A DNA stretch of 64,000 bases from Hybos culiciformis. Its lineage: Eukaryota > Arthropoda > Insecta > Diptera > Hybotidae. Shown piece after piece: positions 4,642 through 47,325 of this stretch. The position numbers and the translations under genes are program-made. The notes beneath the pieces were generated by a model, which did no database searches, was not told the origin of the DNA, and saw only the letters and a program-made list of their open reading frames with translations. Position 1 is the stretch's first letter, and the number at the start of each line of letters is the position of its first letter. Location: NCBI GenBank assembly GCA_964007475.1, contig OZ023274.1:70567303-70631302 (forward strand). The letters are read 5' to 3'.

Positions 4642-5119
4642 ATGAACACAGGAAATAATATTTTTAATTTGACAAATTTCAATACAACACATCCGAAATC
4701 TTTTGAAGCAACAACTGACATATTTAGATTCGAAAATCCACATGTTAAACATGTTAATGAGCTTAAAGATATAGAAAAAGAAACTTGGGAACAACATCGA
4801 CATTATTTGGATACGTTAACATTACCGGGTGAACGCTTAGCGAGTTCATTTGATTCGATTAGTGAATACCAAAACTATCAAAATAATAAAAGACAACAAG
4901 ATGATTACTTGTCCGGCCTTCAGAATTCACATTCATTTAATTCCTATGATTATAAATCGAGCTCTAATAATTACCAAACAAAATCGAAATCAGTGCCTGT
5001 ATATCTGTATATTGGTTTCACTATTTTAATTATTGCTGTGATAATTGTAATAATTGTTCGTAACATAAAAAAACGAAGATATGAAACGATTCATCAGTAT
5101 CCTGCCATTTACAATCCTA
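4642..5119 (+). CDS. Variable first exon 1A (type 1)
   Basis: Encodes 159 residues plus one base. Order: Asn/Thr-rich N terminus with N-glycosylation-type sites (NLT, NTT), a conserved module at about 40-80 (Trp49, then RHYLD, LPG, ASSFDS and EYQ), a Ser/Asn/Tyr-rich linker, a membrane segment at about 118-139, then KKRRY at 143-147. The GTAAGT donor at 5120 is consensus and in phase 1. The first ATG of the frame is at 4642; the 14 codons before it contain no ATG and are probably 5' untranslated. No signal peptide is visible, so an N-outside signal-anchor topology is inferred. The block-B copy at 11429 is frameshifted, making this the only intact type 1. No known family recognised. Confidence 0.8.
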
Positions 5120-5239
5120 GTAAGTCAATCTTTTTTTTCCATCAAAATAATATGAGTTTTAAATTATATATTAAATCCTTGTGGCATTTTCATTTATCAT
5201 TTCAATATTTGTTAAACCGACTACTAAGGTTTGTTCGGT

Positions 5240-6322
5240 AAAGTAGAGAAATCTCCAGTGTACACAGTTTATGCTTACTAGAGCTAAATTAATACACCTA
5301 GGAGTTATTTTCTGTGCTGGAATTTTTATTATTACAGAAGTTTAGTATGTTGTAGAAATGTTTTGAAATGGAAAAAAAATAATAATTATTTAGTTTAAAA
5401 TCTGAGGAGATGTTTGAAAATAATTTGTTATCGCTAGTTGTGTAGAAAGGTAATATATATTTCTTTTCTTCGTTAAATTTACAATATGTATAAATGAAAA
5501 ACTTTATATTTCTGTCATTATGTCGAGAAAGTTCCGGAAGGTTACGGTCATTATCTAGAGAAAGACCCAAACTTTTTTCGTGTGTAGTTGCATGTACACA
5601 TCTTCGGCTATAAAACCCAAAGTTCGGAAACCTACGAGAATGCATTGATTACTAAACAAATTTTTATTAATATTTGAATATATTGAAGCTTATTTGAATA
5701 AATTTAATTTGTTGTTGTAATGCAATTTGCAGATCAAATTAAAAGCTATAAGGTGACAAAATTTTAAAACCGATATTATAAAGAGCGATAATAACAATAT
5801 ATTCGTAATCCTGTTGATCGTAATAATTACTACTATAAATGACTCTAAGAGTATATTAAACTCTAGACTAAACGGTCAAAGCACTCAGGTCAAAGCAGTA
5901 TATATTCCCACTAGCTACTATGTAATATTATAAAAAATTACAAACATTACAAGTTAATAAAAAAAAATATCTACACTATCTAGGCATACGTATGATTCAA
6001 AAATATAAACATATTTCAATTCTTTACACACTTCAATCAGACCTCTTTCCTAGTATACTCAGTGCGCACGCACATTTGAAATAATAATGAATTTATATGT
6101 AAAATTAACATGTGGTAAATCGGTATCATAAATTTATTGCGACCTGACTACATATAAGAAAAATTTTGTTAGTGGTTTATAAAAATTCATAGTATAAGTT
6201 TCATATAATTATATTTTTATATAGTTTCGGAATATAATATACAAAATAATTTTTAGAGAAAAACTTTCATTTAACTTTTGTTTGGTTCAATTCGCAAATT
6301 TTTTTTTAATAATTTGGGAAAT
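5240..6322. other. Intron/promoter interval between exons 1A and 2A
   Basis: Non-coding. Closely matches 11990-12762 in block B, with the copies differing mostly by substitutions and small indels. It should hold the promoter of exon 2A. A minus-strand open frame at 5298-5645 is not kept open in block B. Confidence 0.6.
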
Positions 6323-6746
6323 ATGTTTCACTTAGATAGTATTGCGGAAAAACAATATAAAGCCTTTGTGAAGCAACTCAAAGAGACCGAAAAACAATCT
6401 TGGAAAGAAAATCGACTTTTTTTAAATTCGATTCCACGACTGCCAGACCAATCCCAACCAATTGAATTCGATTCTTTTCAAGAATATGAAGATTCTCTGT
6501 CAAAATTTCGAAATGATTATTTTGAAACAACAACAACCACAGCTAGCTCTGATTATTCTTTTAACAACAACGATTACAATTTTAATTCACCTATTGAAAC
6601 GAGTCTTTCAGAATCAGAACATAGAATAAAATCAGGATCAACTGTTCTTTATGTTATGATCCCGGCTTTTATTTTGACCATTGCCGTTGCAGCTTTTTTG
6701 TATCGAAGTTTAAATAAGATGAAATATCATCAAGCACGAATTTTTG
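6323..6746 (+). CDS. Variable first exon 2A (type 2)
   Basis: Encodes 141 residues plus one base. The conserved module is at about 18-58: Trp27 in EKQSWKENR, then FDSFQEYE, with the PG element changed to LPDQ. A Thr run (FETTTTTASS) and Asn/Ser-rich linker follow, then a membrane segment at about 106-127 and the juxtamembrane sequence KMKYHQARIF. The donor GTAATT at 6747 is in phase 1. The frame extends upstream only through non-ATG codons, so ATG 6323 is chosen. The block-B copy has lost this ATG and gained stops, so this is the only intact type 2. Function unknown. Confidence 0.78.
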
Positions 6747-6759
6747 GTAATTATTATAA

Positions 6760-7910
6760 ACGAAAAATTTTTAATTATATAATTACATAATGTAGGAATT
6801 ATTAATTTAAATTAAACAAAAAATGTTTTCATAATTCTCCCCTTATTTCGGATTCTCGGGCGAACTTATAAGAGCCTAATAAAAACCAACTAATACAAAA
6901 AAACACATGTTTTTATATGTTTTATATGTATATTTTTATTGAGGCGGTAGATTAATATACTATGCGTATAACCTAATACAGTTATTTTAATAATACCAAG
7001 AAGATATTATATACTTCGAAAGTAAAAAATTAAAAAAAAAAACCAATATTTAAGAAAGTCTAGAGAGGAATAATAAATTTATGTTTTACTCACCAATATA
7101 TTAGCATCATAAAAAATTTTCAATGAAAGAAAAATAAATGTGTAGTGTAAGCAAAACATGATCATAGTATTTATTTATGAAAAATTAAAAACATTTCTAA
7201 AAATTGTGTAGTGGCTTTTTAGAATTTGTGTAACAAACTTTAAGTAAATTTATTTTAGCAATTCAGATATACATTTTTTTGTAATTTAAAAAGTATTTAA
7301 AGTATTTAAATAAACAAGAAATAACATTATATGGGTTAATATTAGATAATGGGACAATATGACCAAAAAATGTTGTGCCAAGTAATGATTTTATTATAGG
7401 CAATTATTGTACTTTTTGGTTAGGAAAATGTATTTTATGCATTCAAAACAATAATTTTCTTTAAATAATTTTTATTCTGAACTGCCTGATCTATAAATAT
7501 TATTATATTTTGGTTTTTCACAGGTAGATTTTAAATTTGACTATTTTTTGAAGACATTTCATTGATGTTTTCGTTTTTTTTACTAAGAATTCAATTTTTG
7601 AAATTCTCACAAACGCCTGAACAATCAAAACGACTCAAAAACCTAATTTCCGAGAAAAAACCGGGGGAATTATTGCCAGGGTAATGATTTTTTCACTATT
7701 TTCTTGATATTTTTAATAAAAATGCTGGAGAATGAAAACTCGTGGTGTGAGATAGCCAGAGTTATAATATTTGGGGTATTCTGGTCTAAATTTTCCTATT
7801 AAAACGGAAAAAAAGAAATATTTCATGAAAAGACATCGTTTTGTTCCGTATTTAATATTAATCCATATAAAATAAAGTAAGAAATTTTCTAACGCAAGTA
7901 AATTAGTATA
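6760..7910. other. Intron/promoter interval between exons 2A and 3A
   Basis: Non-coding. It matches block B around 13200-16559 once the SINE, hAT-like and small replacement insertions there are removed. The segments at 6951-7010 and 7085-7115 are empty sites for the SINE and hAT-like insertions. Confidence 0.65.
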
Positions 7911-8319
7911 ATGTCAAGAATAATTAGTAGTAGTACTACTACAATAGAACCAATAATAGATTGGGACCAAAAAGTAAAACAAATTGAAAAAGAATCCTGG
8001 GCAGAAACCAAGCATACTTTTGACTCATTTGGAATGCCTGGTGTACCAAAAGCAAACGGTTATGATTCATATGAAGAATATAGAAAATCTGCTGATGAAT
8101 ATCAAAAATTATACGAACATTTTTTTTCTCAATCGGAGACAACTACTTTTAGAAACTTTTATGCAGATATTGTGACAGAACAAAACAAAACAAAGGCCGG
8201 ACCAGGAGCAAAGCTGATTTTTGTTATGATACCAGTTTTTATTCTCATAATTGGTGTGGCAATATTTGCTTACAAATCTGTAAACAAAATGAGATATCGA
8301 CAAGTACCAATAAATTCGG
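7911..8319 (+). CDS. Variable first exon 3A (type 3)
   Basis: Encodes 136 residues plus one base. Begins with a Ser/Thr-rich run (ISSSTTTIEP), then the conserved module at about 22-60 (Trp30 in EKESWAETK, FDSFGMPG, YDSYEEY), a linker with ETTTF, a membrane segment at about 100-121 and a juxtamembrane MRYRQVPINS. The donor GTAATT at 8320 is in phase 1. A second type-3 exon at 16560 is also open but has lost most of the module. This is the only type for which both block copies remain open. Confidence 0.8.
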
Positions 8320-8359
8320 GTAATTATTTGAAATATTTTTCTTCTTCCCTTTGATGAAA

Positions 8360-9480: not shown

Positions 9481-9955
9481 ATGGAAAATTATACAAATAC
9501 GATTCTATATCAATTCCACGATTTAATGTCAAATCTACGTAGTGAAACAGTAAAAAACGATTTATTTACAACGAATACCACTACAGCTACTGAAGATCCT
9601 CAGTATTATATAAATTTTGCTAATAGTTTGAAAGAAATTGAACAGGAATCTTGGAAACGAAATAGACATTTTTTCGATTCGATGCAAGAATACGAGGATG
9701 CTCGAAAAAAGCATGAGTATGAAATGAGATTTATCACAACGTATTCGCCTCCAATGCAAACGTATGAATACGTTCATCCAGATACCATTGGTCCACTTGT
9801 ATATAATAACAAGCGTACTCATAGTCCAAATCTGGATGGTAGTTGGATTGCTATAGGGTTGGTGTTCTTAATTTCAATCATAATTATCGTTGTTAGTTTT
9901 TTACTAAGAAGAAGACGATATCAGAAAATACCAACAGTTTCAACAATAGATTCTG
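9481..9955 (+). CDS. Variable first exon 4A (type 4)
   Basis: Encodes 158 residues plus one base. N terminus MENYTNTILYQFHDL is shared with type 5. A Thr-rich TTNTTTATEDP segment precedes the module at about 51-75 (Trp58 in EQESWKRNRHFFDS, then MQEYED). The block-B relative keeps a TLKTPGEPRASS stretch before FDSMQEYE that is absent here, so this exon carries an in-frame internal deletion. Membrane segment at about 121-142, then RRRRYQKIPTVSTIDS. The donor GTGAAT at 9956 is in phase 1. The frame reads only 3 codons past the donor. Only open type-4 copy. Confidence 0.8.
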
Positions 9956-10733: not shown

Positions 10734-11190
10734 AATAGAAAATTACAACAATACAAGTCTTTTTCGATTCCATGATTTAATGTCAGATCTATTTAATAAA
10801 ACAGAAAAATTAGATTTATTAACAACAAATACCGCTACAACCACTGAAGATCCTCATTATTATATAAATATAGTCAATAATTTAAATCACCTGGTGATCC
10901 TAGAGCCAGTTCATTCGATTCGAGGCAAGAATACGAGGATACTAAACAAAAGCATGCATATGAAATGAGATTTACCACAACTTATTCACCTCCAATACAT
11001 ACTTATGCTATGCACCTCCAATCCATTCTTATTCTATTCCTGATCCGGATACTATCCCACCACTCATACGTCATAATAATCGTAGTCTAAGTGTTTGTAT
11101 TTTTAATTGCAATCATAATTATTATTGTTGGTTTTATAGTAAGAAGAAAACGATATCACCAAATTCCAAGAACTTCAACATTTAATTAAT
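10734..11190 (+). pseudogene. Pseudo-exon 5A (decayed type 5)
   Basis: Closely related to the intact exon at 21789 but broken in several ways. The start ATG reads ATA. A deletion removes most of the conserved module including its Trp and shifts the frame. A second gap lies before the membrane region, and about 25 bases spanning the splice donor are missing (CTTCAACA runs straight into TTTAATTAATT). With neither start nor donor it cannot make the isoform, although a short frame persists at 10780-10968. Confidence 0.88.
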
Positions 11191-11428
11191 TAAAATAATA
11201 TTTAACATTGTTAAACCCTACCTTATAATTTAATATAATATTCGTCATTAGTGTAGTTTCAAGTTCATGCTCTTTATTTTTCAATCGAAAAAAGCTGGAA
11301 AATTATGAAAAAAAAATACCTACACATTGAGCTTTTTAATTAATTTTTAATTAAGTTAGTTAATTTAAAAACAACCGAACGTAAAGTTGTTCTTTATAAG
11401 CTTATTAATTTTGTTAAAAATTAAAATA

Positions 11429-11874
11429 ATGGAGACAGGAAATAATATTTTTAATTTGACATCTTTCAATACAACACATCCGAAATCTTTTGAAGCAACA
11501 ACTGACATATTTAGATCCGAAAATTCACATGTTAAACATGTTAATGAGCTTAAAGATATAGAAAAAGAAACTTGGGAACAACATCGACATTATTTGGATA
11601 CGTTAACATTACCGGGCGAGTTCATTTGATTCGATTAGTGAATACCAAAACTATCAAAATAATAAGAAACAAAAAGATGATTCCTTGTCCGATTCACATT
11701 CATTTAACTCCTATGATTATAAATCGAGCTCTAATAATTACCAAACAAAATCTCAATCAGTGCCTGCATATACGTACATTGGTTTCACTGTTTTAATTAT
11801 TGCTGCGATAATTGTAGTAATTGTTCCTAACATAAAAAAACGAAGATATGAAACGATTCATCAGTATAATCCTG
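11429..11874 (+). pseudogene. Pseudo-exon 1B (frameshifted type 1)
   Basis: Nearly identical to exon 1A including ATG and a GTAAGT donor (11875). Compared with 1A, 11 bases are missing near 11617, in the LPGERLASSFDS region, so the frame ends at TGA shortly after LPGE. The downstream part (SFDS through the membrane segment and KKRRYETIHQYN) continues open in another frame. The RNA could still be transcribed and spliced, but the protein would be truncated before the membrane span. A recent lesion, given the high identity elsewhere. Confidence 0.88.
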
Positions 11875-12762: not shown

Positions 12763-13186
12763 ATTTTTCACTTAGATAGTATTGCGAAAGAACAATATAA
12801 AGTCTTTGTAAAGCAACTCAAAGAGACCGAAAAACAATCTTGGAAAGAAAATCGACCTTTTTTAAATTCGATTCCACGATTGCCAGGCCAATCCCAAACT
12901 ATTGAATTCGACTCGTTGCAATAATATCAAGATTCTCTGTCAAAATTTTGAAATGATTATTTTGAAACAACAACAACCACAGCTAGCTCGGATTATTCTT
13001 TTAACAACAACGATTACAATTTTAATTCACCTATTGAAACGAGTCTCTTAGAATCAGAACATAGAATAAAATCAGGATCAACTGTTCTTTATGTTATGAT
13101 CCCGGCTTTTATTTTGACCATTGCCGTTGCAGCTTTTTTGTATCGAAGTTAAAATAAGATGAAATATCATCAAGCACGAATTTTTG
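12763..13186 (+). pseudogene. Pseudo-exon 2B (decayed type 2)
   Basis: Copy of exon 2A. The ATG is replaced by ATT (12763-12765), an in-frame TAA appears at 12922-12924 inside the FDSxQEYE motif, a TGA replaces CGA a few codons later, and a further TAA lies just after the membrane segment. The donor GTAATT at 13187 is retained. It cannot encode the isoform. Confidence 0.9.
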
Positions 13187-13430
13187 GTAATTATTATAAA
13201 CGAAAAATTTATAATTATATAATTACATAATTACATAATGTAGGAATTATTAATTTAAATTAAACGAAAATGTTTTCATAATTCTCCACTTATCTCGGAT
13301 TCTCGGACGAACTTATAAGAGCCTATCCTAATAAAAACCAACTAATGCAAAAAACACATGTTTTTATATGTTTTATATGTATATTTTTATTGAGGCGGTA
13401 GACTAATATACTACATAAGCCTATAACACA

Positions 13431-16559: not shown

Positions 16560-16896
16560 ATGTCAAGAATAATTAGTAGTAGTACTACTACAATAGAACC
16601 AATAATAGATTGGGACCAAAAACTAAAAGAAATTGTAGAATATACAAAATCTTTTGATGAAGAATATAAAAAATATTTTGATGAATATCTAAAATTAAAC
16701 GAAAATCAATGGGAGACACATACTTTAAGAAACTTTTATGCAGATATTGTAACAGAACAACACAAAATAAAGGCAGGACCAGGATTAACGCTGATTTTTA
16801 TTATGATAGCAGTTTTTATTCTCATAATTGGTGTGGCAATATTTGCTTACAAATGTGTAAACAAAAGGAGATATCGACAAGTACCAATAAATTCGG
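16560..16896 (+). CDS. Variable first exon 3B (type 3, shortened)
   Basis: Encodes 112 residues plus one base. The first 20 residues equal exon 3A, and the C-terminal part (RNFYADIVTEQ, membrane segment at about 76-97, RRYRQVPINS) is also near identical. The region between is about 24 residues shorter and lacks the SW...PG...YDS module, replaced by acidic/Tyr sequence (SFDEEYKKYFDEYLK). The donor GTAATT at 16897 is in phase 1. The frame has stayed open despite loss of the module, so it is either a functional ectodomain variant or a young relic. Confidence 0.7.
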
Positions 16897-18466: not shown

Positions 18467-18998
18467 ATGGAAAATTATAAAAATACAATTCTATATCAAT
18501 TCCATGATTTAATGTCAAATCTACGTAGTGAAATAGAAAAAAACGATTTATTTACAACAAATACCACTACAGCGACTGAAGATCCTCAGTATTATATAAA
18601 TTTTATAGTTTGAAAGAAATTGAACAGGAATCTTGGAAACGAAATAGACATTTTTTGGATACATTAAAAACACCTGGTGAGCCTAGAGCCAGTTCATTCG
18701 ATTCGATGCAAGAATACGAGGATGCTCGAAAAAAGCATGCGTATGAAATGAGATTTACCACAACTTAAATGAGATTTACCACAACTTATCCAATGCAAAC
18801 GTATGAATACGTTCATCCAGATACCATTGGTCCACTTGTATATCTTAACAAGCGTACTCATAGTCCAAATCTGGATGGTAGGTAGTTGGATTGCTATAGG
18901 GTTGGTGTTCTTAATTTCAATCATAATTATCGTTGTTAGTTTTTTACTAAGAAGAAGACGATATCAGAAAATACCAACAGTTTCAACAATAGATTCTG
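18467..18998 (+). pseudogene. Pseudo-exon 4B (frameshifted type 4)
   Basis: Copy of exon 4A with ATG and donor (GTGAAT at 18999) kept. A 4-base gap near 18604 shifts the frame soon after QYYINF. A 20-base direct duplication, ATGAGATTTACCACAACTTA, near 18746-18787 adds a stop, and a small GGTA duplication lies near 18881. It keeps the codons for TLKTPGEPRASSFDS that 4A has lost, so it preserves the ancestral length of type 4. Confidence 0.88.
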
Positions 18999-21788: not shown

Positions 21789-22326
21789 ATGGAAAATTAT
21801 AACAATACAAGTCTTTTTCGATTCCATGATTTAATGTCAGATCTACTTAATAAAACAGAAAAAAACGATTTATTTACAACAAATACCGCTACAACCACAG
21901 AAGATCCTCAATATTATATAAATTTAGTCAATAATTTGAAACAAATTGAACAAGAAAGTTGGAAACAAAATAGACATTTTATGGATATGTTTAAATCACC
22001 TGGGCAACCTAGAGCAAGTTCATTCGATTCGAGGCAAGAATACGAGGATGCTAAACAAAAGCATGCATATGAAATGAGATTTACGACAACTTATTCACCC
22101 CCTTATGCACCTCCAATCCATATTTATGAACCTCCAATCCAATCTTATTCAAATCCTAGTCCGGATGCTATCTCACCACACGTTCGTTCTAATAATCGCA
22201 GTCTAAGTGTTGGTTGGATTGCTATATTGTTTGTATTTGTAATTGCAATCATAATTATTATTGTTGGTTTTATAGTAAGAAGAAAACGATATCACCAAGT
22301 TCCAAGAACTTCAACAATACTTTGTG
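21789..22326 (+). CDS. Variable first exon 5B (type 5)
   Basis: Encodes 179 residues plus one base. N terminus MENYNNTSLFRFHDLMSD, then Thr-rich TTNTATTTEDP, the full conserved module at about 51-86 (Trp58 in EQESWKQNRHFMD, SPGQPRASSFDS, EYED), a Pro/Tyr-rich stretch with repeated PPIHIYE/PPIQSYS units at about 103-122, a membrane segment at about 141-163 and RRKRYHQVP. The donor GTGAAT at 22327 is in phase 1. The longest and most complete ectodomain of the type 1-5 group, and the only open type 5, since 5A lost start, module and donor. Confidence 0.82.
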
Positions 22327-24082: not shown

Positions 24083-24533
24083 ATGGAACAAAATACAAAT
24101 TATTTGAAAGAAATTTTAAATTCATTGGGTTTATTGCATATTTTAAATAAATTTAATAATGTGACGACATCAGCTCAAGGCAATTCAAATTCAATGAAAA
24201 CTAATACTGAAAAACCATTTGATTCATTCTTTCGCAACACTTTGGATCGAATTTATAAGAAAAATTTGGAAAGGCAAAAATTTTATTCAGATTTAATAAA
24301 TAATAGTGACGAGGATAGTGATGAAAAATTTATATCATTAAATTCAATTGATTCAAATGAAAATGATTTCAGCATTACAACATCATACAATGATAATTAT
24401 TTAAATCCAATGTTAATTGCAATCATATTTTTTAGCATTATTTTATCAATTTTATTGATTGCTATTGCCCTTCTTGTCGTTACATGCATTTGTGTCCTTG
24501 GGAATGTGAAAAAATGACAAAGAATACCTAATG
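24083..24533 (+). CDS. Variable first exon 6, with an in-frame TGA before the donor
   Basis: The ATG opens 144 codons: Asn/Ser-rich ectodomain, an RIYKKNLERQKFYSDLI segment that may be a diverged form of the conserved module, an acidic Ser/Asp stretch, and a long membrane segment at about 109-138 followed by NVKK. TGA at 24515-24517 then closes the frame. Reading on gives QRIPN and a phase-1 donor (ATG then GTATGA, GT at 24534), which matches the C-terminal pattern of the other variable exons (basic, then IPxxG). Either this exon has been silenced by one nonsense change, the TGA is read through, the allele or base call is wrong, or it makes a tail-less protein. Confidence 0.6.
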
Positions 24534-24539: not shown

Positions 24540-26348
24540 TTATGCAATATAATTTTTTAATATATAGTATACATATAAATTTTATCTTTATAAATTAAGG
24601 TCATTTTTTTAACATTCTGATTTATTTCATTTACTATGAATGCAACAGATTTTCTATATCTAAAGGTTAGGTAATCTTTGTTATGGCTGGAAGCAAGAAT
24701 TTGAATTTTATTTTATTCTACAATTACTTTAGAATAAATCAAATTTGGGTATTGTGTATTGTATATTAAAAAAAAAAGAAGGATCAAGGTCGTCTTAACC
24801 CTTTGCTGCAGACAATTAACTTAAAAAAATTAACTTAAAATTATCACTCATTTTCCCTCAAAAGTAAAAATTGCTTATTATTTATAAATATTCTAAAAAT
24901 CTAAATAATAATAATCGAATTTTTCACGCAATCATAATTTTTTTAGTTTTTTTTCGCCTCGGATGAAATACAATGAATTGGACGAAATGTACAAAACTGG
25001 AAAAAATGATAAAAAATCACGACAAACTCGAAAAAATCAACTTTATTAAATAACTTTAATTTTTGTGACAAAAAAATATAAGACAGACACTAAACTTCTT
25101 CCTAAACTTCTTTTACATAATCACATTTTATCGATTTCGATGTTATATCGTTTATTTTCTTCCAATGGCGATCGGAATGTTATCTTTTTCGTTAGAATTT
25201 TGTTCGATTTCAATTCTGGGCTAGTCGATTTATATGTTTCAAGCTTAATTTAAAATTAAAAGGAAGTATTTTCTAGGGAAAACTTTTAAATTTTTTAAAG
25301 TTTCATATTTTTCAAATAATATTTTCTACACGGCATTAATTTTTATTTTATTTCGTTTATAATTTTAAAATTTTTAAATAATAGCATTATTTCAGCCAAA
25401 CTGCAAAGTATAATTTTTCTAATAAAAATGTACAAGTACATTGGGCATAATATAAAAATGTATCCTTTATTTAATGTGAAGGTAACACTTTATTTTACTT
25501 TCAAAGTATTTTTAATTTGAAATGCGTCGCGTCGCTTTTTGCAAGATATATACCTCAGTAATATAAACATAAACTTACACTACTACATAACCATAAAAAG
25601 CTTATACTTGTTTTACCAAACCTTTTTTTCTTGTTACTTTACTTCTTTTTTTTTCAAAGCATGTTAAAAACAAATTATATGAGTATTTTTTAGGTATCCA
25701 TTATAAATATTTCGTACTTTATTTTTTACATGATATATTGCAAAATTTTCGTTTGAGAAAATAAATTAATAAAAATTTTATAATTTCTTTTTACTATGAA
25801 AAATAGTTATTGACGATTTTAAAGTTTTATTAATTTTATTTATAACATAATAAAATGAAAAGTGTAAAAAAACACTTTGGTGATTGGAGCTTAATTTCGT
25901 GTGAATATACTAGGAAATTGGTTTGATTGTTTTGTTTTCTACTTTGGATTCGTAGTTCGATGTTAGTCTTAGAAAAGCCTTAAAAAAAACGTTGTGAATG
26001 AGTTTTAATTTTGACGGTTCGGTAAGGTGACGTGACGTGACGTGATTAATGTGTGTGTGGATAGACCTTATAGCTCATATTTCTGTGTACGATATTCACA
26101 GATTGAGAAACTCTGTTTTATAATGAAAACTTATAAAAATACATAATTTATTAGTTAGATATAAATATTATATGTATATCACTATAATACATAAACATTG
26201 GAAAAAAAAAGTTTAAAAATTAATTTTTCTTAAGAGTGTTAGTTTTTCACGAAATTTCATTCAATGAACTTCAAATTGATTCAAATATAACTTGGATTTT
26301 TCACTAATACAAAACAATCGTATGCATATTACTATAAAAAAATTTACA
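24540..26348. other. Intron/intergenic interval, no exon seen
   Basis: AT-rich. A short tandem GTGACGTGACGTGACGTGA lies near 26025-26045, a possible small repeat of CRE-like TGACGT cores. No coding exon supported; the 62-codon frame at 25065-25253 begins at GTG and has no exon features. Confidence 0.5.
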
Positions 26349-26832
26349 ATGGATAATAAAAACATCTCCAACATTTTACAATTCAATGAATTTCTGAAGT
26401 ATTCACAAAAAAATGTTTTAAGTACTACAAAACCACCAGTTACAGAATATCCCAACTATTATAAAGGCATAGTAAATAAAATCGAAAACGGTGGTTGGGA
26501 ATTAAATCGTCAATTTTTGGATTTATTTACGTTGCCTGGACAACGAAAAGCAAGCTCTTTCGATACAATGGAAGATTATGAAAAATATCGTGAGGAGCAA
26601 TTAATGATGGAAAATAAATTTTATGTTACAAGTCAATATTATGAAGCAACGTTTCCGCCTGTAAATCCGATTACCCATGATGGCAATAAACCTACATCGG
26701 CGGCAGTGACGACGATGGCCATTGCTTGGATATTTGTTGTGGCAGTAATGTTATTGCTCACAATTGTACCGGCTATAATTTGTTATTTGACATGTAAAAA
26801 AAGACGTCAATCTCATGTGCCATTAATGTCGG
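26349..26832 (+). CDS. Variable first exon 7
   Basis: Encodes 161 residues plus one base. Module at about 42-80: NKIENGGWELNRQFLD, LPGQRKASSFDT, EDYEKY, the clearest match to types 1 and 5 outside the duplicated blocks. Threonine-rich TTKPPVTEYP precedes it. Membrane segment at about 121-147, then CKKRRQSHVPLMS. The donor GTAGAT at 26833 is in phase 1. An in-frame ATG at 26322 would add nine residues; 26349 is preferred because it gives the MxN-type N terminus seen in the relatives. Single copy, with older divergence than blocks A/B. Confidence 0.8.
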
Positions 26833-27159: not shown

Positions 27160-27721
27160 ATGGAGCATTATTTGGGAAATAAAGACTGGTTTTTTAAAGA
27201 GTTAAAAAGAGTAAAAAGAAAAGGCGGTGGCCGAGGAGGTGGAGGTGGAAGAGGAGGCGGCAGAGGCAGTAGCAGTCGAGGGAGTAAATCAGGAGGTTGG
27301 CGGTCTAGTGGCGGTCACAGCACTTATCATTTCGCATCAATACATCATGGATCCGGGTCTTCTTATGGATCGTCGGGTTACAGAGACGCCGATGATCATG
27401 TAGTTACAGCAGTTTTACTATCCATATGTGCATTACTAACATTGTACTACCTTTACAAATATTACTACAAAAAAAGGTCATCTCCAACTCCAAGCCCGCT
27501 ATCATCAAATTGTTCTACACCTCTTATGAATAGAACTCCCAATTTTTCAACATTATCCTCTACAGAAAACGCAAACCCGATTATGAATACACCTCCCAAT
27601 GTTTCAACTTTACCTTTTACAGAAAACCCACAACCGGTGAATGTTCCGAATGATAGAATTAAAAAAACTCCACCATCAAATGATATTCTCGAACTGATAC
27701 ATAATGCAAGGACAGAAACTG
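27160..27721 (+). CDS. Variable first exon 8 (Gly/Arg-rich)
   Basis: Encodes 187 residues plus one base. Starts MEHYLGNKDWFFKELKRVKRK, containing a furin-type RVKR, then a Gly-rich RGG region (about 22-53), a His/Ser/Tyr-rich stretch, a membrane segment at about 81-99 and a Lys-rich flank. Unlike other variable exons it continues about 85 residues past the membrane, with an 18-residue repeat (NFSTLSSTENANP and NVSTLPFTENPQP). The donor GTAAAT at 27722 is in phase 1. Reading past the donor gives a further 74 open codons, probably intronic. Local GC is raised by the Gly codons. No module match. Function unknown. Confidence 0.75.
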
Positions 27722-28046: not shown

Positions 28047-29562
28047 ATGAAAATATTTTTTGAAAACAAAACTAATTCATTTGAAATTTTGACAAGAATT
28101 AAAAGAAAAGGTGGTAGGGGTGGGGGTGGAGGTCGAGGCAGCAGAGCCAAGAGCTCGAAAATCACATATCCTGGTTATTTCGCTAGAAGTGGTAGATTTT
28201 TTTCGTCTCATAATCGGACATATTTAGGATCTTCTGATCATAACGAGAATGATTTTTTATTAAGTTTAGAAGAATTTTCGTCGACATTATTATTCTTCGC
28301 ATTTCTTTTCTTTTTTTATCGTTGGATAAATTCCACATCAAAAGAAACTGCTACAGATAAGTCTGAAAACAACTTAGAGAATGTTAAAATTTGTTCTAAC
28401 GGTGAAGATGTTTCTGAATGCGAGAAAGCATTTCCAACAACATTACCTTCAATTTCAAATTCAACTGAAAAAAATATTCTTATCGATGTTGAAAGCAGCA
28501 AATTACAATCTTCAATCGATATTAATTTATCAAAAGAGGAATTCAATAGTTCTTGCCAAATTTTAACTGACCAGAATACATGGCAGATAAATCCATCAAC
28601 ATTTGACACCGACAATCTGAATACAGGTCAAACTGGAGAGACAAATCAAAATAGATCGAAATCGTATCCTGTAAAGAAAATGAAAGAATCAAATCAATTT
28701 TCAAACTTAGAAATGGAATATCGAGGAAATTCGAAATATAATGTTAAACATCAGCCAGTATTGATGGAAAATTTAAATGAATCAAAACTTGAGAAATTGC
28801 ATTTAGAAAATATAAAACTTTTTGACGAAATAGATAATTTTACGCTATTATTAAATCAAAATAGTAAATGTAAAAAAAATTCTTCTCTCTCGACAGCACC
28901 AGTTTCCAATAATGAGTTCAAAAGTGTCCAATCATCTAAAATACACAAGTCTTCCAATGAAAACCTAAATAAGTCTGAAGTTGAATATAATAAATTAGAT
29001 TTATCAACATATTCACCGTCTTCTAGTAAAAAAACCAAAAATTTACGACTATCTTTAGATAAAAAGATGAAATGGAATGAAATGTCAGATAAAACTACAT
29101 TTCCCATCAAGGATCCAAATAAATTTTATACTCAACATAAAAAAGTATTGCCATCATTACCAACAAAACGATTTAATAATTCTTACCAAAATGTATATGA
29201 AAATAGTGTCGATGAACAAATTGTACCATTTAAAGTACATTCTAATAACAATATATCCTTATCGAAATCAACTGTAAAGCCTATTCAACAATTAAGTAAT
29301 CCAATATCATCTATTGTTACCAAAAATCGAGATAACTTCTCATTCAGATATTCAAGGGATAAAAATAAATGTGAAAACAATATGCCAAATCAGAGACTAA
29401 AGAAACATACTGTATTTTTAAAAGAATCAAAAATTACATATCAAGATAATGAGAATTACGATCAGTTTGAAAGCCTGCCAACCAGAACATTAGGACAATA
29501 TTTCATTCCGAAAACAAATATTATGTGTCCCTCTGATTACATGGGTTTCTATCCACTAGATG
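28047..29562 (+). CDS. Variable first exon 9 (Gly-rich, very long)
   Basis: Encodes 505 residues plus one base, by far the longest variable exon. The N terminus resembles exon 8: TRIKRKGGRGGGGGRGS, again with a furin-type site (RIKR) before the Gly run, then a membrane segment at about 79-94. About 410 residues follow on the presumed cytosolic side: Ser/Asn/Lys-rich, low complexity, without a domain I recognise. The frame ends SDYMGFYPLD at a GTAAAT donor (29563) in phase 1. Exons 8 and 9 are probably an old tandem duplication. Such a long cytosolic segment before the shared tail is unlike the rest of the set, and the exon could have an independent role. Confidence 0.72.
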
Positions 29563-29649
29563 GTAAATTCAAATATTTCAATTATAGTGCATTATACACA
29601 CACATACACATCTTACATTACGCATTGATTTATGAGAAAGAAATTTAAT

Positions 29650-30765: not shown

Positions 30766-31192
30766 ATGATTGAAAATTATTTAAATTTATTAAAATTAAA
30801 ATTTTCAAATGAAACTAAAAAAGAAGAAAATTTTCTCAACCCAATCGAAAGCTCAGTCAATTATGAAACAACAACTGAAAATTATTTAAATCAAAATTCT
30901 AGCATCGTGAATCAATTAAATGAATTCATTAATAAAGCTTGGGACAATAATCCTGATTCAGATACTTTTGATAGTATTAATGATCACAAAAATTTTATTT
31001 CATTTGATGCGTCTGATTCATTAGAATCGCATCATAATACTCACAGTGTAATCAGTGCCGATTCGAAACCTATGTCACGAAATATGATGCGTTTTTTGAT
31101 GTTTATTATTATTTTCTCGGTTTTTATAACTTTGTATTTATGTACAGCATTATTTAGAAATCAAAAATATTTAGTGATTCCTGGATCAAATG
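30766..31192 (+). CDS. Variable first exon 10
   Basis: Encodes 142 residues plus one base. N terminus MIENYLNLLKLKF, a Thr/Asn stretch (YETTTENYLNQNSS), a diverged module (NEFINKAWDNN, DTFDSINDHKNF) retaining the Trp and FDS, a Ser/His-rich linker, a membrane segment at about 109-130 and RNQKYLVIPGSN. The donor GTAATT at 31193 is in phase 1. The K-Y-x-x-I-P pattern after the membrane matches exons 3A, 4A and 5B. A distant member of the long-ectodomain group. Confidence 0.78.
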
Positions 31193-33324: not shown

Positions 33325-33520
33325 ATGGACGATTCTACATTAAATTCATTTCTTTCAGTTGTATTAATAGCTCTTACTTTTTTTACAATATTCATATGCT
33401 CGGTCATTGCATATTATTTATACAATTATCATTATGGAAAAGAAACGAATTTGTGTATTAATTTTTGTAATGCGGGAAATGTTGGACGAACTGTCAATAA
33501 CCTTTATACGAATATAAATA
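33325..33520 (+). CDS. Variable first exon 11 (short)
   Basis: Encodes 65 residues plus one base. Only about eight residues precede the membrane segment (about 9-32), then a Tyr-rich and Cys/Asn-containing cytosolic stretch (NYHYGKETNLCINFCNAG). The donor GTAAGA at 33521 is in phase 1. From here downstream the variable exons have almost no ectodomain. No module. Confidence 0.72.
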
Positions 33521-35116: not shown

Positions 35117-35270
35117 ATGGATCGTTACATATCAAATGTTTTAACTTTTTATTATATTTTGATAACATTTTCATTTATTTTTCTTGTTCTCGTAATGGTT
35201 TATCGTTATTCAAAAAAATTTGGTTACAATTATTATAGATACCCAGTTCATCGGCCTACCTATGCTTATT
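35117..35270 (+). CDS. Variable first exon 12 (short)
   Basis: Encodes 51 residues plus one base: MDRYISNV, a membrane segment at about 9-29, then a Tyr/Arg-rich cytosolic stretch (RYSKKFGYNYYRYPVHRP). The donor GTAAGT at 35271 is consensus and in phase 1. The last base is T, so the junction codon with the constant exon would be TCT (Ser) rather than the usual GCT (Ala). Confidence 0.72.
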
Positions 35271-36267: not shown

Positions 36268-36412
36268 ATGATTACAAGTTCTACAATATTCGCTTTAGTT
36301 TTAGTTTTTATTTTTATTTTTATTGTAATCGCGATCCTGATTAGATGGATGACAGTTGGTTTTGAAAATGACAGTTACGATCGTTTTCAAGCACGCATAA
36401 ATAATAATTATG
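36268..36412 (+). CDS. Variable first exon 13 (short)
   Basis: Encodes 48 residues plus one base: MITSSTI, a strongly hydrophobic membrane segment at about 6-25 (FIFIFIVIAILI), then RWMTVGFENDSYDRFQARINNNY. The donor GTAATT at 36413 is in phase 1. Found from the ATG, membrane and donor pattern rather than by length. A TCAGTT initiator match lies about 23 bases upstream of the ATG. Confidence 0.68.
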
Positions 36413-36419
36413 GTAATTA

Positions 36420-38729: not shown

Positions 38730-38835
38730 ATGATCGAAGCTTTTACATTTATATTATGTATTGTATTTTTTATTGTTCTAATTATTATATTTTATCACAT
38801 TTTCAAACGAATACGTGCAATTCCAATTTATAATG
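38730..38835 (+). CDS. Variable first exon 15 (minimal, array unit 2)
   Basis: Encodes 35 residues plus one base: MIEA, a membrane segment at about 4-24, then HIFKRIRAIPIYN. The donor GTAAAT at 38836 is in phase 1. The protein is little more than a membrane anchor with the basic/IP juxtamembrane motif, which would carry the constant 126-residue tail. Short, but conservation of frame, donor and residues across three array units argues for real coding. Confidence 0.75.
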
Positions 38836-39290
38836 GTAAATGTTTTTTTTTTTTATTAAAAATACTTTTGACAGTTTGTAATTATAATTTTATTTTATTT
38901 TATTTATATAAAATAAAATCGAGATACAACATAATAGGTACAATATAATGTATCTAGAAGATACATATATAATAACTTAAAAAACAAAAAATATTTATTT
39001 ATTAAAAATTCGGAAATATTTTTAAGAAAGCTTTTCCATTGAGCTTCAATGTCACAAAGCTTTATTTAAAAAAAAAAAAAAAATTTCCTGTGCTTGTGTT
39101 ACGATAAACAAAAACTTCCGAAAATATAAACTGAATATCACATATTATGAGAATTTAGTCGATCACTAGATTTTAGTTCAAAAGGAAGTTAATTTCTTTT
39201 TTAATCAAAAAAATAAATTAATTTTATTTTTTGTTTTTTTTTTTATTGTTATTTAAAAAATAAAATTTTAATAAATTTTAATATTTGTTT

Positions 39291-39396
39291 ATGGCCGGAA
39301 TTTTTACATATTTATTATGTCTTCTAGTTTTTATTGTTCTAATTATTGTATTTTATCACATTTGCAAAGGAAATCGTCGAACTCCAATTTATAATG
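39291..39396 (+). CDS. Variable first exon 16 (minimal, array unit 3)
   Basis: Encodes 35 residues plus one base: MAGIFTYLLCLLVFIVLIIV, then FYHICKGNRRTPIYN. The donor GTAAAT at 39397 is in phase 1. Differs from the next unit by only two residues. Confidence 0.75.
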
Positions 39397-39851
39397 GTAA
39401 ATGTTTTTTTTTTTTTATTAAAAATACTTTTGACAGTTTGTAATTATAATTTTATTTTATTTTATTTATATAAAATAAAATCGAGATACAACATAATAGG
39501 TACAATATAATGTATCTAGAAGATACATATATAATAACTTAAAAAACAAAAAATATTTATTTATTAAAAATTCGGAAATATTTTTAAGAAAGCTTTTCCA
39601 TTGAGCTTCAATGTCACAAAGCTTTATTTAAAAAAAAAAAAAATGTTTCCTGTGCTTGTGTTACGATAAACAAAAACTTCCGAAAATATAAACTGAATAT
39701 CACATATTATGAGAATTTAGTGGATCACTAGATTTTAGTTCAAAAAGAAGTTAATTTCTTTTTTAATCAAAAAAATAAATTAATTTTATTTTTTGTTTTT
39801 TTTTTATTGTTATTTAAAAAATAAAATTTTAATAAATTTTAATATTTGTTT

Positions 39852-39957
39852 ATGGCCGGAACTTTTACATATTTATTATGTCTTCTATTTTTTATTGTTC
39901 TAATTATTGTATTTTATCACATTTGCAAAGGAAATCGTCGAACTCCAATTTATAATG
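39852..39957 (+). CDS. Variable first exon 17 (minimal, array unit 4)
   Basis: Encodes 35 residues plus one base: MAGTFTYLLCLLFFIVLIIV, then FYHICKGNRRTPIYN. The donor GTAAAT at 39958 is in phase 1. A frame two codons longer upstream uses TTG and is not preferred. Compared with unit 3, nearly all differences are single substitutions or run-length changes. Confidence 0.75.
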
Positions 39958-40069
39958 GTAAATGTTTTTTTTTAATAAAAATACTTTTGACAGTTTGTAA
40001 TTGCTGTCAAGTTCTAAAATATACCAATAAAAATGACAGTTGCCACTTACAGTCCGATTGATAGTGGCA

Positions 40070-42862: not shown

Positions 42863-42995
42863 ATGTTATTTTTCATATGTTTTTTTGCGTTTTGGATTAT
42901 TTTTATGATAACTTTTAGTATTTTCCGTCTTTGTGACGAACATTTTAATGGAAAAAATTATCCATATACTCGAGGTGGAAATCGTGATCGAGAAG
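42863..42995 (+). CDS. Variable first exon 18 (short)
   Basis: Encodes 44 residues plus one base: an N-terminal hydrophobic segment from residue 1 to about 21 (MLFFICFFAFWIIFMITFSI), then FRLCDEHFNGKNYPYTRGGN and RDRE. The donor GTAAGC at 42996 is in phase 1. With the hydrophobic run at the extreme N terminus a cleaved signal peptide is conceivable, though family context favours an anchor. Confidence 0.68.
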
Positions 42996-42999
42996 GTAA

Positions 43000-43714
43000 G
43001 CAAGCAGCTGTATGCTGAAAATTATATAATAAATAAATCGATATGAAAATATTTGATTTTCGAGATATCATAAATTTTTGATTAAAAAATCTATAAAATT
43101 TCGATTAATAACCTTGATGGCTTTATTCAATTTGTAATGTTGGAATGGTCATGGCAAGACAAGTGAAATCCATTGAAATAAAAAGTTAATCAATATCCAT
43201 TGTATGATCTACATGGGCTAAAAAAAAAGTTTTTTTTTTTAGTTTCTCATACTCTTTTTTTTAATAATTTTTTGGAAAAATTGGTTTATATTGGTGATAG
43301 TGTGAATATATTTGGAAAGAAAGTACTATATAGTATATATACTTATATTATACTATTGAGTATTAATAACTTCTCGCATGCAGACAAATGGTTTTTTTAT
43401 TCATTTTATAATATTATATTAAAAGAATATTATGTATATGTATATTATAAAATTATATTTTTTTTATGTGTGCGAAATAAAAAATAAAAAATTTATAGAA
43501 GTATATTATTATAACTTGTTTGTTTTTTTTTTTTTTAAATTGTGAGTATATTTTTGGTATGACATCAAAACTTGAAATTTATTTCTCTCAGTCTCAGTTA
43601 GTTATCGGTCCAAGAAGAAATCTAATAAATTTTTGTTTTTTTATATTATTGTACATTTTTTATATTTATTTATTTTTTTTACTACGCGTTTATTAGTTGT
43701 ATTTTTTTTATATT
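43000..43714. other. Interval between exons 18 and 19
   Basis: No exon. TCTCAGTTAG near 43593-43602 is an initiator-like site about 120 bases before exon 19. A 95-codon frame from 43200 starts at a non-ATG codon and looks spurious. Confidence 0.45.
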
Positions 43715-43856
43715 ATGGATCCAACATTTATATTAATTCCAGCTATTATTATAATTCCAACGATTTTTGTTTTTATTATAGCATGTTGTGTGACATTCTG
43801 TTTTACAAATATGAATCGTCAACAACGAGTAGAGCAAGTATTTCCAAGATATACTG
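43715..43856 (+). CDS. Variable first exon 19 (short)
   Basis: Encodes 47 residues plus one base: MDPT, a long membrane segment at about 5-30 with several Cys (IIACCVTFCF), then NMNRQQRVEQVFPRYT. The donor GTAAAT at 43857 is in phase 1. The Cys group at the cytosolic end of the span is a possible palmitoylation site. Confidence 0.72.
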
Positions 43857-43859
43857 GTA

Positions 43860-46336
43860 AATAAATAAAAGAATTTTTTTTTTGTACATCCTCATCCGCC
43901 CTCTTTTTAAAAAATGCAAAACATGTACTATATGTATTTGCTTTTATTTTTACCGTATATATATATATATATATATACATATATAGTAATATTATAAACT
44001 TCATAGATTATTAGAGTAAAGGTTATAGATAGAAAGATCAAAAAAATAAACATTTTGATGAGAGAGAAAATAAAAAAACTATTGAATATTCTTATCTTTT
44101 TTATATTAAATGTATTTTTGTTTATAATAATTTCTAAGCAAAAATACTTCTTAAAAACGAAAATAAAAGGACTTTTATTAGATTATTATTTTTAACTTCT
44201 TCGGTGTATCGATTTTTTTGAAAAATTACCTTCATAACTTTAATTAAGAAAAAACCCTAAATTTCTGTCTCTGACACTATATACAGCATATTTGACACTA
44301 TATACAAAATATTCATACATAACGTAGTTAAAAACAAAAATGTAAGTTGATATTTCTATGAAAGGAGTGGTATAACCATAATTGTAATAAAAAACTTAAA
44401 CATAATATTGTAATATTTTTTGTTTAGGTATATTATATCGATTTTTATTATTTTTTTTTTTTGGAATATTATAATTGACTAATCTTTTTCTTCTCCTAAT
44501 TTCATTAAATAACAATATACAATATACTATGTAAAATGTAAGTGTATCGTGCAATAAATTTCATCAAATTTCTGAAAAATCAAAAATTTTTCATATTAAA
44601 AGATGAAAGTTTTTGATGGAAAAACAAAATTCATTTACTTAAATTAGAAAATTTAAATACAACTACTCTATTTTTTGTTGATCTATATTACATATATAAA
44701 AACAATAAAAATTAATCAATATTAAATATTTTTATATATACTATAACAGACTAAGAATTATATAACAAAACATAAACATTTTATTAATTATTTGCTTCTT
44801 TAATTCATTAAAAAAATTAATTTTTCTTTTCATTTTATTTCCCGCCTTTTAGTTTCAAATGTAAACGTAAGGCATAATATGTATAGTATAATATTAATAG
44901 TATATATAATAATTATTAAATGAAAATGAAAAACAACACTTTTTTAAAAAAAAATGATTCATATTAATATTGTTTATTATTTTTCTTTTTTATTATTTAT
45001 AAAAATGAATTAGCGCCATCAGTGCAAATATAGATATATGTATCTATAACATTATGTATAAATAAATGTTTACAATTTTCATTGAATTAGGGAATCACTT
45101 TTCATTTCATTTTTTTATGATCTATTCGATTTGCGTCAAGAGAGATTACGTCATTTTTATTTTCTTCAATGTTTTGCTTCGTTTCGTTCGTTTATTTTCA
45201 TGTGTTTTCAATTATATTTTATATTGCGAGCATAGAAAAAAATGAAAAATTCACGAAAGCTTTTTTATTATTTAATACATTTACAGTGTGCATACATACA
45301 TTTTTATAGATATAAAAAGTTTTATTTTTTTTTCGAAAATTCTTCTATTGAAAAATTGTTAACAAAAATTAGTGAAAATAATTTTTCATCAATGAGTCAT
45401 CATGATTTTCTTAAGAAAATTTCTAAAAAAATTTTCATGTTGTTATGTTTAAAATGTTTGTTTACAATATTTTCATTTTTCAATGGAAACTTTATTGAAA
45501 ATAGTTTTTAGTATCTAGGTACATAAAACTTTTTATAATTGTGTTACAACAGAAAGCTAAAAGATGAATAATTTATGGAAATTCTTCAAAATTTAAAAAA
45601 AGCAATTTTAGTTAACTCTTTTGTTACAAATGAGATTTTTTAGATTAAAAAATAATTAAATAAGGCAGGTAGTTTGGTCTGTGAGATAAAACATGGTCTC
45701 TTTATTTAGCCCCAATCCTCTTTACTCTTTCAATTCTTTTCTCTAATTTTAATGTTTTTTTAATTTTGGATAAGCTTATTTTTTAAGATTATGATTAAGA
45801 CCTTTATAACTTGAAAATCTTAAAGTTTTAATAAATTTGGGTCTTTTCAAAAATTATGTCAAAATTTATTATGATTTGAATATACTCATATTAAATGTAC
45901 TTGAAATTTCAAAAGCTTATTTAAACAGAAATTTGAAACTATATATGTAATTAATGTCGTATTTAGCTTAATATTTTAAATTTTAATTTTCCTAATACTG
46001 ATTTTTAAGTGAATGCGATAAGAGATCATTATTTATTATATATATATATGTATTTAAAAATAGTAATTTGACAATATCTTATCTTTAGAAAACACTTTGG
46101 AACTATGGTCAGTAACAAGGAATTATCTAAATATGCTTTAATTGATTGCTAAAAAAAAAAATTGTGAATGGTGAAAATTTTTTTTCCATATCAATTGTTT
46201 TTGTCTGAAGTACTTATTTTTTGTTCATTTATTAAGTGCTATATAATTAATTTATAAGAATGTTGTCAGTAATTAAAGTAAAATTGGAAGGATAATAGTT
46301 TTAATTCCTTCAATTTAAATTAAATTTTAGTGAATC
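43860..46336. other. Interval between exons 19 and 20
   Basis: AT-rich non-coding. Contains a TA dinucleotide run near 43957-43984. The 89-codon frame from ATG 45242 has no membrane/donor pattern and is not called. TTGTCAGTAATTAAAG near 46263 is an initiator-like site before exon 20. Confidence 0.5.
43957..43984. repeat. TA microsatellite
   Basis: Run of alternating TA with a final ACATATATA. Length is likely to vary between individuals. Confidence 0.9.
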
Positions 46337-46451
46337 ATGGATTCACCTATTGTGATTTTAATTTTTTTTATTAATTTTGCAATAGCTTTTGCTATGATAT
46401 ATTATATTTATTTAAAAATAACCTATCTTAAGAAAACTAAGAATACTCAAG
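46337..46451 (+). CDS. Variable first exon 20 (short, proximal)
   Basis: Encodes 38 residues plus one base: MDSP, a membrane segment at about 4-24, then YLKITYLKKTKNTQ. The donor GTTAGT at 46452 is in phase 1 and only 173 bases from the constant acceptor. This proximal exon joined to the constant exons gives a straightforward three-exon gene, 164 residues in all, and anchors the model: G plus CT makes GCT (Ala), and the frame stays open to 47325. Confidence 0.8.
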
Positions 46452-46624
46452 GTTAGTTTTAGGTTTGAGATTAAAAAAAGTTTGATCTGAATCAACAGGT
46501 GAAAATTAAATAATTGAAAAAATTCATTTTAAAAAAAAGAAACTTAAATTAACAAGTTATATGTATACTAAATTTGTATTTTATTCAAATTTTTAATCCA
46601 TCTTTTTTTTTTGTTTATTTTTAG

Positions 46625-46838
46625 CTCCAGTAGTGGTAACTTCAACATCACATTCAACAGCAACAGCAACAACCAACGCTTTTCCAAATACTGCTGGTTT
46701 CGCAGGGGCTACAACCAGTAATTATCAAACAACAAATGTGCAATTTGAACATACATCGCCTTATAGACAACCACCGACATCGTACCCCATGCCTCAACCA
46801 GCTTCCAATGCAGCCCCATATCCAACATCAAATACAAG
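46625..46838 (+). CDS. Constant exon 1 of the shared tail
   Basis: Preceded by a strong T-rich tract and AG at 46623-46624. Entering in phase 1 it encodes residues 1-71 of the tail plus two bases: Ser/Thr/Ala-rich (VVVTSTSHSTATATTNAF), then Asn/Gln/Thr and a Pro/Tyr-rich end (SPYRQPPTSYPMPQPAS, AAPYPTSNT). No ATG begins this frame, so it must be spliced onto an upstream exon. It leaves in phase 2 at GTAAAA (46839). It is the only acceptor in the window I found that matches the donors of the variable exons. Presumed cytosolic and unstructured. Confidence 0.85.
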
Positions 46839-47159
46839 GTAAAACATTTATTGAAATGTAAATATGGTATAGACTCAGATAAAACAGTCAACAGAACAGA
46901 AAGATTTTTAAAAACTACTAATGATACTTATCTACCTTTTTCGCCAATATATTTTCAAGAGTTATCTGGTTATCTCTATAAATTTCCTATATAGATGCGT
47001 AAAAGACTGTGAAAGAAGTATTTTTTTAATCTTGAAAAGTAATGCAAGTAATTCAAGAACTGTTTAAAATAAATTTAAATATTTTTAATTTTAACAATTA
47101 TATTTTTATTTTGAATTCGAAAAAATTAATTCATAATTTTTCTTTGATTTTCTTTTTAG

Positions 47160-47325
47160 TATGCCAATGCCAACATCATCATATCCACATCCTCAAACAT
47201 CCAATACAGCACCTTATCCACCAGATCCAGCTTCAGTTAATCCACCATCATATGATCAAGTTGTTGGCAATGCTGGAGATTCTTCATTTAAACAAGCACC
47301 ATATAACCCAAATTATTCTGGATAA
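47160..47325 (+). CDS. Constant terminal exon with PPxY motif
   Basis: Acceptor TTTCTTTTTAG ends at 47159. Encodes tail residues 72-126 and the stop TAA (47323-47325). Contains SYPHPQTSNTAPYP, a repeat of SYPMPQPASNAAPYP in the preceding exon, then NPPSYDQVV: a PPxY motif (tail residues 100-103) overlapping YDQV, a YxxV-type sorting motif. PPxY binds WW domains such as those of NEDD4-family ubiquitin ligases; single-pass proteins with such tails often act as ligase adaptors or are themselves sorted to endosomes. The end QAPYNPNYSG is Pro/Tyr-rich. The family link is inferred from motifs only. Confidence 0.85.

Follow-up and report, generated by a model that had tools for sequence, protein, structure and literature searches.

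A candidate array of alternative membrane-anchor first exons ahead of one PPxY tail in the fly Hybos culiciformis

Contig OZ023274.1 of the fly Hybos culiciformis (assembly of 342 Mb) contains, at positions 70567303-70631302, a stretch of 64,000 nucleotides (the window) in which small exons, each with its own start codon and one membrane segment, lie in tandem ahead of a pair of constant exons encoding a tail with a PPxY motif. The best supported reading is that these are alternative first exons spliced to that one tail. We consider this layout highly probable, and our explanation as a whole, a one-directional array of first exons whose products act as sorting adaptors, is given a rough probability of 0.7. 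As read here the gene runs from a point 64.7 kb before the window start as far as 47325 (~112 kb) and holds 27 intact variable exons, 17 in the window and 10 upstream of it (coordinates are window positions, negative values denoting positions on the same contig upstream of the window start). Joined to the constant tail, these exons give predicted isoforms of ~155-313 residues. An earlier reading of the window, the original prediction, had proposed about 20 first exons, which is too few, since at least 27 intact exons are spread across the 112 kb; its figure of nineteen intact exons is about right for the window itself, where 17 are sure and up to three more are doubtful, and falls short of the array as a whole. 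No description of such a gene or layout was found in the open-licence literature searched, where the two papers that mention both shisa-5 and Drosophila deal, by title, with tick salivary glands and with condensates.

The constant tail and its dipteran relatives

The two constant exons are separated by an intron of 321 bases with a T-rich acceptor before 47160, and together encode a predicted cytosolic tail of 125 residues plus a split codon. The tail has one PPxY motif (PPSY) and, two residues from its C-terminal end, NPNY. Searched as DNA, constant exon 1 matches the 342 Mb genome once; searched as protein, the tail gives two matches, which are the two constant exons themselves, and a second tail was not found. 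The single pair of constant exons in the original prediction stands, its boundaries checked base by base and the tail without further match in the genome, as does the PPxY of the tail, to which the C-terminal NPxY, overlooked before, has to be added.

Three protein-collection searches returned 12, 453 and 395 hits; all 12 of the first search and 120 from each of the other two were listed, giving 170 distinct proteins. All statements about relatives below apply to these listed matches. Every relative with an organism name came from flies, midges or mosquitoes, and the tail matched a Condylostylus protein at E 5e-15. Because a phase-1 donor joined to the constant CN gives a split codon N|CN, only alanine, threonine, serine or proline (NCN codons) can stand at the junction. 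This holds for all 169 relatives that cover the position (the 170th, P0058, begins past the junction), with T in 73, A in 70, S in 24 and P in 2. The motifs PPxY and NPx[YF] are kept in 170 of the 170, a figure that describes conservation and is no independent test, as the relatives were retrieved via the tail.

Thirty-five species were represented by at least two entries (107 entries in all, assigned to species by hand from the printed names), with between 1 and 8 anchors per species. Anchors were counted as different if, within a species, they had no 12-residue stretch in common, which gives a total of 102. At least two different anchors occur in 33 of the 35 species, and the tail is identical between entries in 32, with two slightly different forms each in Haematobia, D. 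takahashii and D. suzukii. In each of the last two species both listed entries carry the same or nearly the same anchor; two entries of Teleopsis, and likewise two of D. gunungcola, have a common anchor and differ only at the junction; and D. sulfurigaster has two anchors that are partly alike. A membrane segment is present in 102 of 103 relatives' N-termini tested (D. takahashii and D. suzukii were left out of this count). Relatives that carry different anchors on the same tail support joint splicing, and these species comparisons, together with the split codon, favour the idea of alternative anchors on a shared PPxY tail with which the analysis began.

The relatives are named as isoforms of 'protein shisa-5', 'annexin A11', 'PAN1' or 'atrophin-1' (for example, Condylostylus LOC129611234), which we take for unrelated automatic labels probably attached to scattered isoforms of one gene. 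The dipteran database family called 'shisa-5' has a tail homologous to the one described here, the N|CN split codon, PPxY and NPx[YF], and anchors exchanged within species; a smaller form of the same design appears to occur in many flies. The joining of exons in H. culiciformis is predicted from its genome and the relatives' protein entries, and it counts against joint splicing that most of those entries are automatic gene models. A few are transcript-derived, judging by name (for example, in Lutzomyia, Nyssomyia and Haematobia).

Extent, direction and phase of the array

Exon 21789, when searched against the genome, matched at 15 places, of which 14 are in the window and one lies 50.7 kb upstream of it. 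Both strands of the window were scanned together with 100 kb upstream and 60 kb downstream (400 N in the joined stretch), counting as an intact variable exon an ATG with one membrane segment and a phase-1 donor close behind that segment. At a donor score of at least 3, the interval from -66 to +47 kb holds 28 candidate exons on the + strand (including remnant 18803 and doubtful 33325, and leaving out 27160) and one on the - strand. Beyond the array there is one candidate per strand downstream of the tail, at +96.8 and +91.6 kb, and none on either strand of the scanned stretch upstream. The two downstream candidates are look-alikes, an inverted pair of MISPF... membrane open reading frames (ORFs) with phase-1 donors at +96754 (+) and +91572 (-), some 45-50 kb past the tail; they are perhaps a separate gene.

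Phase 1 was a selection criterion for the 27 curated exons, all of which therefore have it and provide no independent test of phase. A phase-blind test instead took ORFs with an ATG and a membrane segment (mean hydropathy at least 2.4) and the best donor of any phase within 50 codons. On the + strand of the array (-66 to +47 kb) there are 44 such ORFs, of which 28 have a donor scoring at least 5, in phases 0, 1 and 2 in 1, 26 and 1 cases, respectively; the binomial P of 7e-11 for 26 of 28 against one third is overstated, duplicated exons not being independent. None of the 9 membrane ORFs on the - strand of the array reaches this donor score, nor does any of the 4 (+) and 3 (-) upstream of the array. 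Downstream of the tail, the + strand has 6 ORFs with 3 such donors, one per phase, and the - strand 9 ORFs with one, in phase 1.

In 26 of the 27 exons (the exception is 30766) more lysines and arginines directly follow the membrane segment than directly precede it, a charge bias that predicts an N-outside/C-inside topology. The outside part of the intact exons comprises either 1-41 or 77-143 residues, and in the eight intact exons from 35 kb on only 1-7.

All 17 intact, three doubtful and four broken copies in the window are on the + strand (Table 1). Exon 27160 was counted as intact despite its less hydrophobic segment, having been added apart from the main membrane-segment scan; it and the ORF next to it (27160-27721 and 28047-29645) have a KRKGGGRGGGGGRGG-like outer start, unlike the remaining variable exons. 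Repeats link the 4.6-10.2 kb stretch of the window with its 11.3-19.2 kb stretch, and the broken copies fit these repeats.

Table 1. Variable and constant exons of the array, in window coordinates
Feature	Position	Strand	Description
Ten upstream variable exons	first bases -64702, -58541, -54943, -50749, -46896, -42946, -40044, -36546, -31786, -12874	+	
Variable exon	4642..5119	+	159 aa, long ectodomain, donor A|GTAAGT
Variable exon	6323..6746	+	141 aa, long ectodomain
Variable exon	7911..8319	+	136 aa, long ectodomain
Variable exon	9481..9955	+	158 aa, long ectodomain
Broken exon copy	10735..11180	+	start codon gone, internal stops
Broken exon copy of 4642	11429..11867	+	internal stops
Broken exon copy of 6323	12763..13192	+	start codon gone, internal stops
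Variable exon	16560..16896	+	112 aa, shortened copy of 7911, open frame
Broken exon copy of 9481	18467..18998	+	internal stops; membrane segment and donor retained
Variable exon	21789..22326	+	179 aa, long ectodomain
Doubtful exon	24083..24514	+	ATG and membrane segment; phase-1 donor after it weak
Variable exon	26349..26832	+	161 aa, long ectodomain; further in-frame ATG at 26322
Variable exon	27160..27721	+	187 aa, Gly/Arg-rich ectodomain, less hydrophobic membrane segment
Doubtful exon	28047..29645	+	533 aa ORF, Gly/Arg-rich start, hydrophobic segment, no clear donor
Variable exon	30766..31192	+	142 aa, long ectodomain
Doubtful short exon	33325..33520	+	weak phase-1 donors only (33467 or 33521)
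Variable exon	35117..35270	+	51 aa, 7 residues ahead of membrane segment, donor T|GTAAGT
Variable exon	36268..36412	+	48 aa
Variable exon	38730..38835	+	35 aa
Variable exon	39291..39396	+	35 aa, tandem relative of 38730
Variable exon	39852..39957	+	35 aa, tandem relative of 39291
Variable exon	42863..42995	+	44 aa
Variable exon	43715..43856	+	47 aa
Last variable exon	46337..46451	+	38 aa
Constant exon 1	46625..46838	+	214 bases; phase-1 acceptor at 46625, phase-2 donor GT at 46839
Constant exon 2	47160..47325	+	PPSY and NPNY motifs; stop TAA 47323-47325

Amid the variable exons, two long ORFs (-31163 to -29153, +) look like hAT-type transposase by eye. Upstream of the array lies an ORF (-83177 to -82770, +) without a Pfam match that contains ELPTYDEVI, resembling the extended PY motif GLPSYDEAL of Commissureless as given in PMC5578492. 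The neighbouring genes encode a Zc3h12a-type RNase domain upstream (-81723 to -81379, -) and a proteasome subunit downstream (+120461 to +120967, +). Scanning the window for Rfam families and tRNA genes yielded no match.

Evolution of the variable exons

The exons at 4-31 kb and the one at -50.7 kb have a common outside region, SW..NR...D...PG....SFDS..EY. An AlphaFold model of one such ectodomain with 9 paralogues predicts helices at 40-67 and 82-101 flanking the PG turn, with middling confidence (predicted local distance difference test score, pLDDT, of 77-90 for the block and 66 on average; predicted template modelling score, pTM, 0.34). A Foldseek comparison of this model with the PDB found nothing better than E 4.5, and no fold was assigned.

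Nine exon pairs, some sharing members, were compared for their ratio of replacement to silent substitution rates (dN/dS), and seven of these were tested statistically. Ratios below one were obtained for 9481/21789 (0.54, P 0.015), -50749/4642 (0.61, P 0.03), 9481/26349 (0.42, P 0.0003) and 21789/26349 (0.47, P 0.0005), as well as for 4642/26349 (0.3, with silent sites saturated and no significance test). Among the tandem 35-residue anchors, 38730 and 39852 differ by ~0.5 silent and 15.5 replacement changes (P 0.02), and 38730 and 39291 by ~0.5 and 17.5 (P 0.01), both P values having been computed after rounding in the favourable direction; 39291 and 39852 are two replacements apart (no significance test). 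Across 38730-39957, then, the first anchor departs from the other two almost purely by replacements. On this pairwise pattern the older ectodomain exons are under constraint, whereas there may be diversification among the young anchors of 35 residues.

To look for counterparts, the 27 exons were compared with the small set of 169 relatives' N-termini, to which the following E values relate. The clearest belongs to -31786: it is an isoform of Drosophila busckii, and the two align from residue 1 onward (29% over 79 residues, E 4e-7). Exon -58541 has its best counterpart at E 2e-5, -64702 is weakly like a widespread MDFW/MDIF isoform (E 0.01), and most other exons align along the membrane segment only.

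Several of these observations count against our explanation. For few of the window exons is there a clear counterpart in another fly, the SW/PG/SFDS ectodomain is absent among the relatives' listed matches, and the young pairs 7911/16560 (dN/dS 1.58, P 0.5) and 38730/39291 show no constraint. Given the scarcity of counterparts and the missing long ectodomain, many exons may be young. One could go further and suppose that only a handful of fly-shared exons are functional, the 4-31 kb ectodomain block being a recent and mostly decaying expansion. The four broken copies, the near-neutral young pairs and the lack of listed ectodomain relatives all agree with this, but the older ectodomain pairs retain ratios of 0.42-0.61 and exon -50749 is still intact although it lies 55 kb from the rest of its group, and we think such a restricted array rather unlikely.

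Proposed function, exon choice and known systems

PPxY is a ligand of WW domains, chiefly of those in Nedd4-type ligases, and NPxY is a known endocytic and phosphotyrosine-binding (PTB) signal. The likeliest function of the proteins, at about even odds, is that of transmembrane sorting adaptors with exchangeable client-selecting parts. Each first exon has a start codon, an outer part, one membrane helix and a phase-1 donor, and the chosen exon would be spliced to both constant exons, so acquiring the cytosolic tail. The variable membrane and outer part would pick a client or compartment; the PPxY of the tail would recruit a Nedd4-group ubiquitin ligase with WW domains, and its NPxY a clathrin/PTB-type adaptor; and the client would be internalised or routed to the endosome or lysosome. 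With so few outer residues in the exons from 35 kb on, the membrane helix itself would there have to pick the client or compartment.

There are precedents for parts of this scheme. CYYR1, a small single-pass protein, binds WWP1 through PPxY and drives it to lysosomes (PMC11399591), and Commissureless (Comm), which is short, single-pass and without a signal sequence, binds Nedd4 through L/PPxY and removes Robo (PMC5578492). The same accounts also tell against it: CYYR1 has three PPxY motifs and loses binding only after removal of two (PMC11399591), compared with the one PPxY here, and Comm-Nedd4 binding is reported to be needed at the neuromuscular junction, not for control of Robo at the midline (PMC5578492). 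For these reasons our confidence in the function is slightly reduced. A role other than in trafficking, with the proteins serving perhaps as ligands of receptors or as peptides that shape membranes and PPxY and NPxY setting only the protein's own turnover, would suit the one group with a long outer part that AlphaFold models as partly helical, and also the many exons almost without an outer part, for which the tail could be a mere degradation signal. We regard it as improbable, however, since what all the retrieved relatives have kept is the tail, though these were found through it.

As read here, the gene works in layout like the clustered protocadherins and in chemistry like Commissureless and CYYR1, but it is a member of neither group. 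The variable exon of a clustered protocadherin encodes the outer part, the membrane segment and the start of the cytosolic part, and the constant exons encode the rest; in chelicerate sDscam the membrane segment lies in the constant part; and we know of no variable-exon array in Commissureless/PRRG4. Clustered protocadherins resemble the proposed array in their tandem variable first exons, which in their case have alternative promoters (PMC4835542), but carry cadherin repeats, whereas the proteins here are tiny and have a PPxY/NPxY tail. No cadherin repeats were found in the ORFs of the 4 of 17 intact window exons scanned (7911, 21789, 26322/26349, 27160), 21789 giving a weak match to Cadherin_C_2 (E 0.26, far below the cut-off). 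The sDscam genes, likewise from arthropods, have tandem 5' cassettes with a promoter before each that are spliced to constant exons, but their cassettes consist of two or four exons encoding immunoglobulin domains (PMC4835542), as opposed to the single membrane-anchor exons here. Comm is likewise a short single-pass protein with PY motifs, which bind Nedd4, and it controls a receptor (PMC5578492), but the tail sequence of the present gene is different, and the Pfam family Comm (PF15957) matched one of 13 members of set A1, at E 0.074 only, which does not make the gene a member.

The Shisa-like (STMC6) proteins, CYYR1 among them, likewise have PPxY in a proline-rich cytosolic tail. They too are single-pass, with a tail that binds WW ligases (PMC11399591), and are characterised by an outer six-cysteine domain, C*C*CC*CC (PMC5578492). 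No such domain was seen in the 27 curated exons, 26 of which have no cysteine before the membrane segment and the other just one. Pfam searches with the 13 A1 members gave a best match of E 0.013, to a family of unknown function, and Shisa was not among the 9 families at E <=0.1; ORFs 28047, 27160, 21789, 7911 and 26322 had weak matches, none at the curated cut-off. The proposed Drosophila Shisa-like member is CG15760, a different gene (PMC5578492); with the six-cysteine domain missing as well, the automatic name shisa-5 is unsupported. CG30460 was considered as the D. melanogaster counterpart of the present gene but set aside, as passages from papers found under that name (PMC7144092, PMC7812380, PMC7495911) had no bearing on the idea.

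How an exon is chosen can be approached through the sequences before the start codons. Taking the score of the constant acceptor (46625) as benchmark, a strong acceptor lies within 120 bases 5' of the ATG in 1 of 24 exons, where ~1.6 are expected (6.5% at random places). Without an acceptor excess, a transcript begun at any one exon is expected to pass over the variable exons that follow and to be joined to 46625. AAGCTT has 69 occurrences in the array; of these, 21 are situated 100-350 bases ahead of an exon from a set of 30 (with the doubtful and copied ones), against 4.6 expected. For 24 intact exons without three copies there are 13 against 3.7 expected, before 8 of the 24, and within 250-base upstream regions it is found for 11 of 27 exons against 2.5 expected. 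AAGCTT is a possible promoter element on these counts, set against which it was chosen post hoc by ranking all words (thousands), and the best 7-mer (P 5e-6 among 16,384 words) is not significant after correction. A second candidate, GTTAGT, was dropped, being partly shared by descent within the ectodomain group.

We infer that an exon is chosen by choice of promoter. The variable exons could alternatively be internal and mutually exclusive, all lying behind one non-coding leader with a single promoter and being chosen in splicing, and exon 43715 does have an acceptor-like site as good as the constant acceptor 117 bases before its ATG; we judged a common leader less likely, indeed quite improbable, because there is no general acceptor excess before the ATGs and because the upstream AAGCTT looks more like part of a promoter. 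That the ORFs are separate tiny genes in a cluster, each with a single exon or with a downstream partner of its own, and that only the nearest exon or exons use the constant tail, is very unlikely: several ORFs do stop a few codons past the donor and would, unspliced, encode small membrane proteins too, and tandem duplication with four broken copies resembles the birth and death of a gene cluster, but the phase of the donors is the one that the only tail found requires, and dipteran species combine one tail with different anchors.

Promoter choice among alternative first exons would allow a sorting code in place of an adhesion code, a doubtful extension that we offer tentatively. The subset of ~30 anchors used by a cell type would decide which of its membrane proteins reach the common docking tail, and new anchors would arise by tandem exon duplication and diversify under selection. 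To our knowledge, it is mainly adhesion molecules that are known to be made from arrays of variable first exons joined to a constant tail; in the present gene that logic would be at work in small proteins whose constant part is a putative docking tail. If this is true, the gene would be a genetically tractable case of first-exon choice, having relatives in Drosophila and sand flies, and would make it possible to ask directly what is selected by a single membrane helix.

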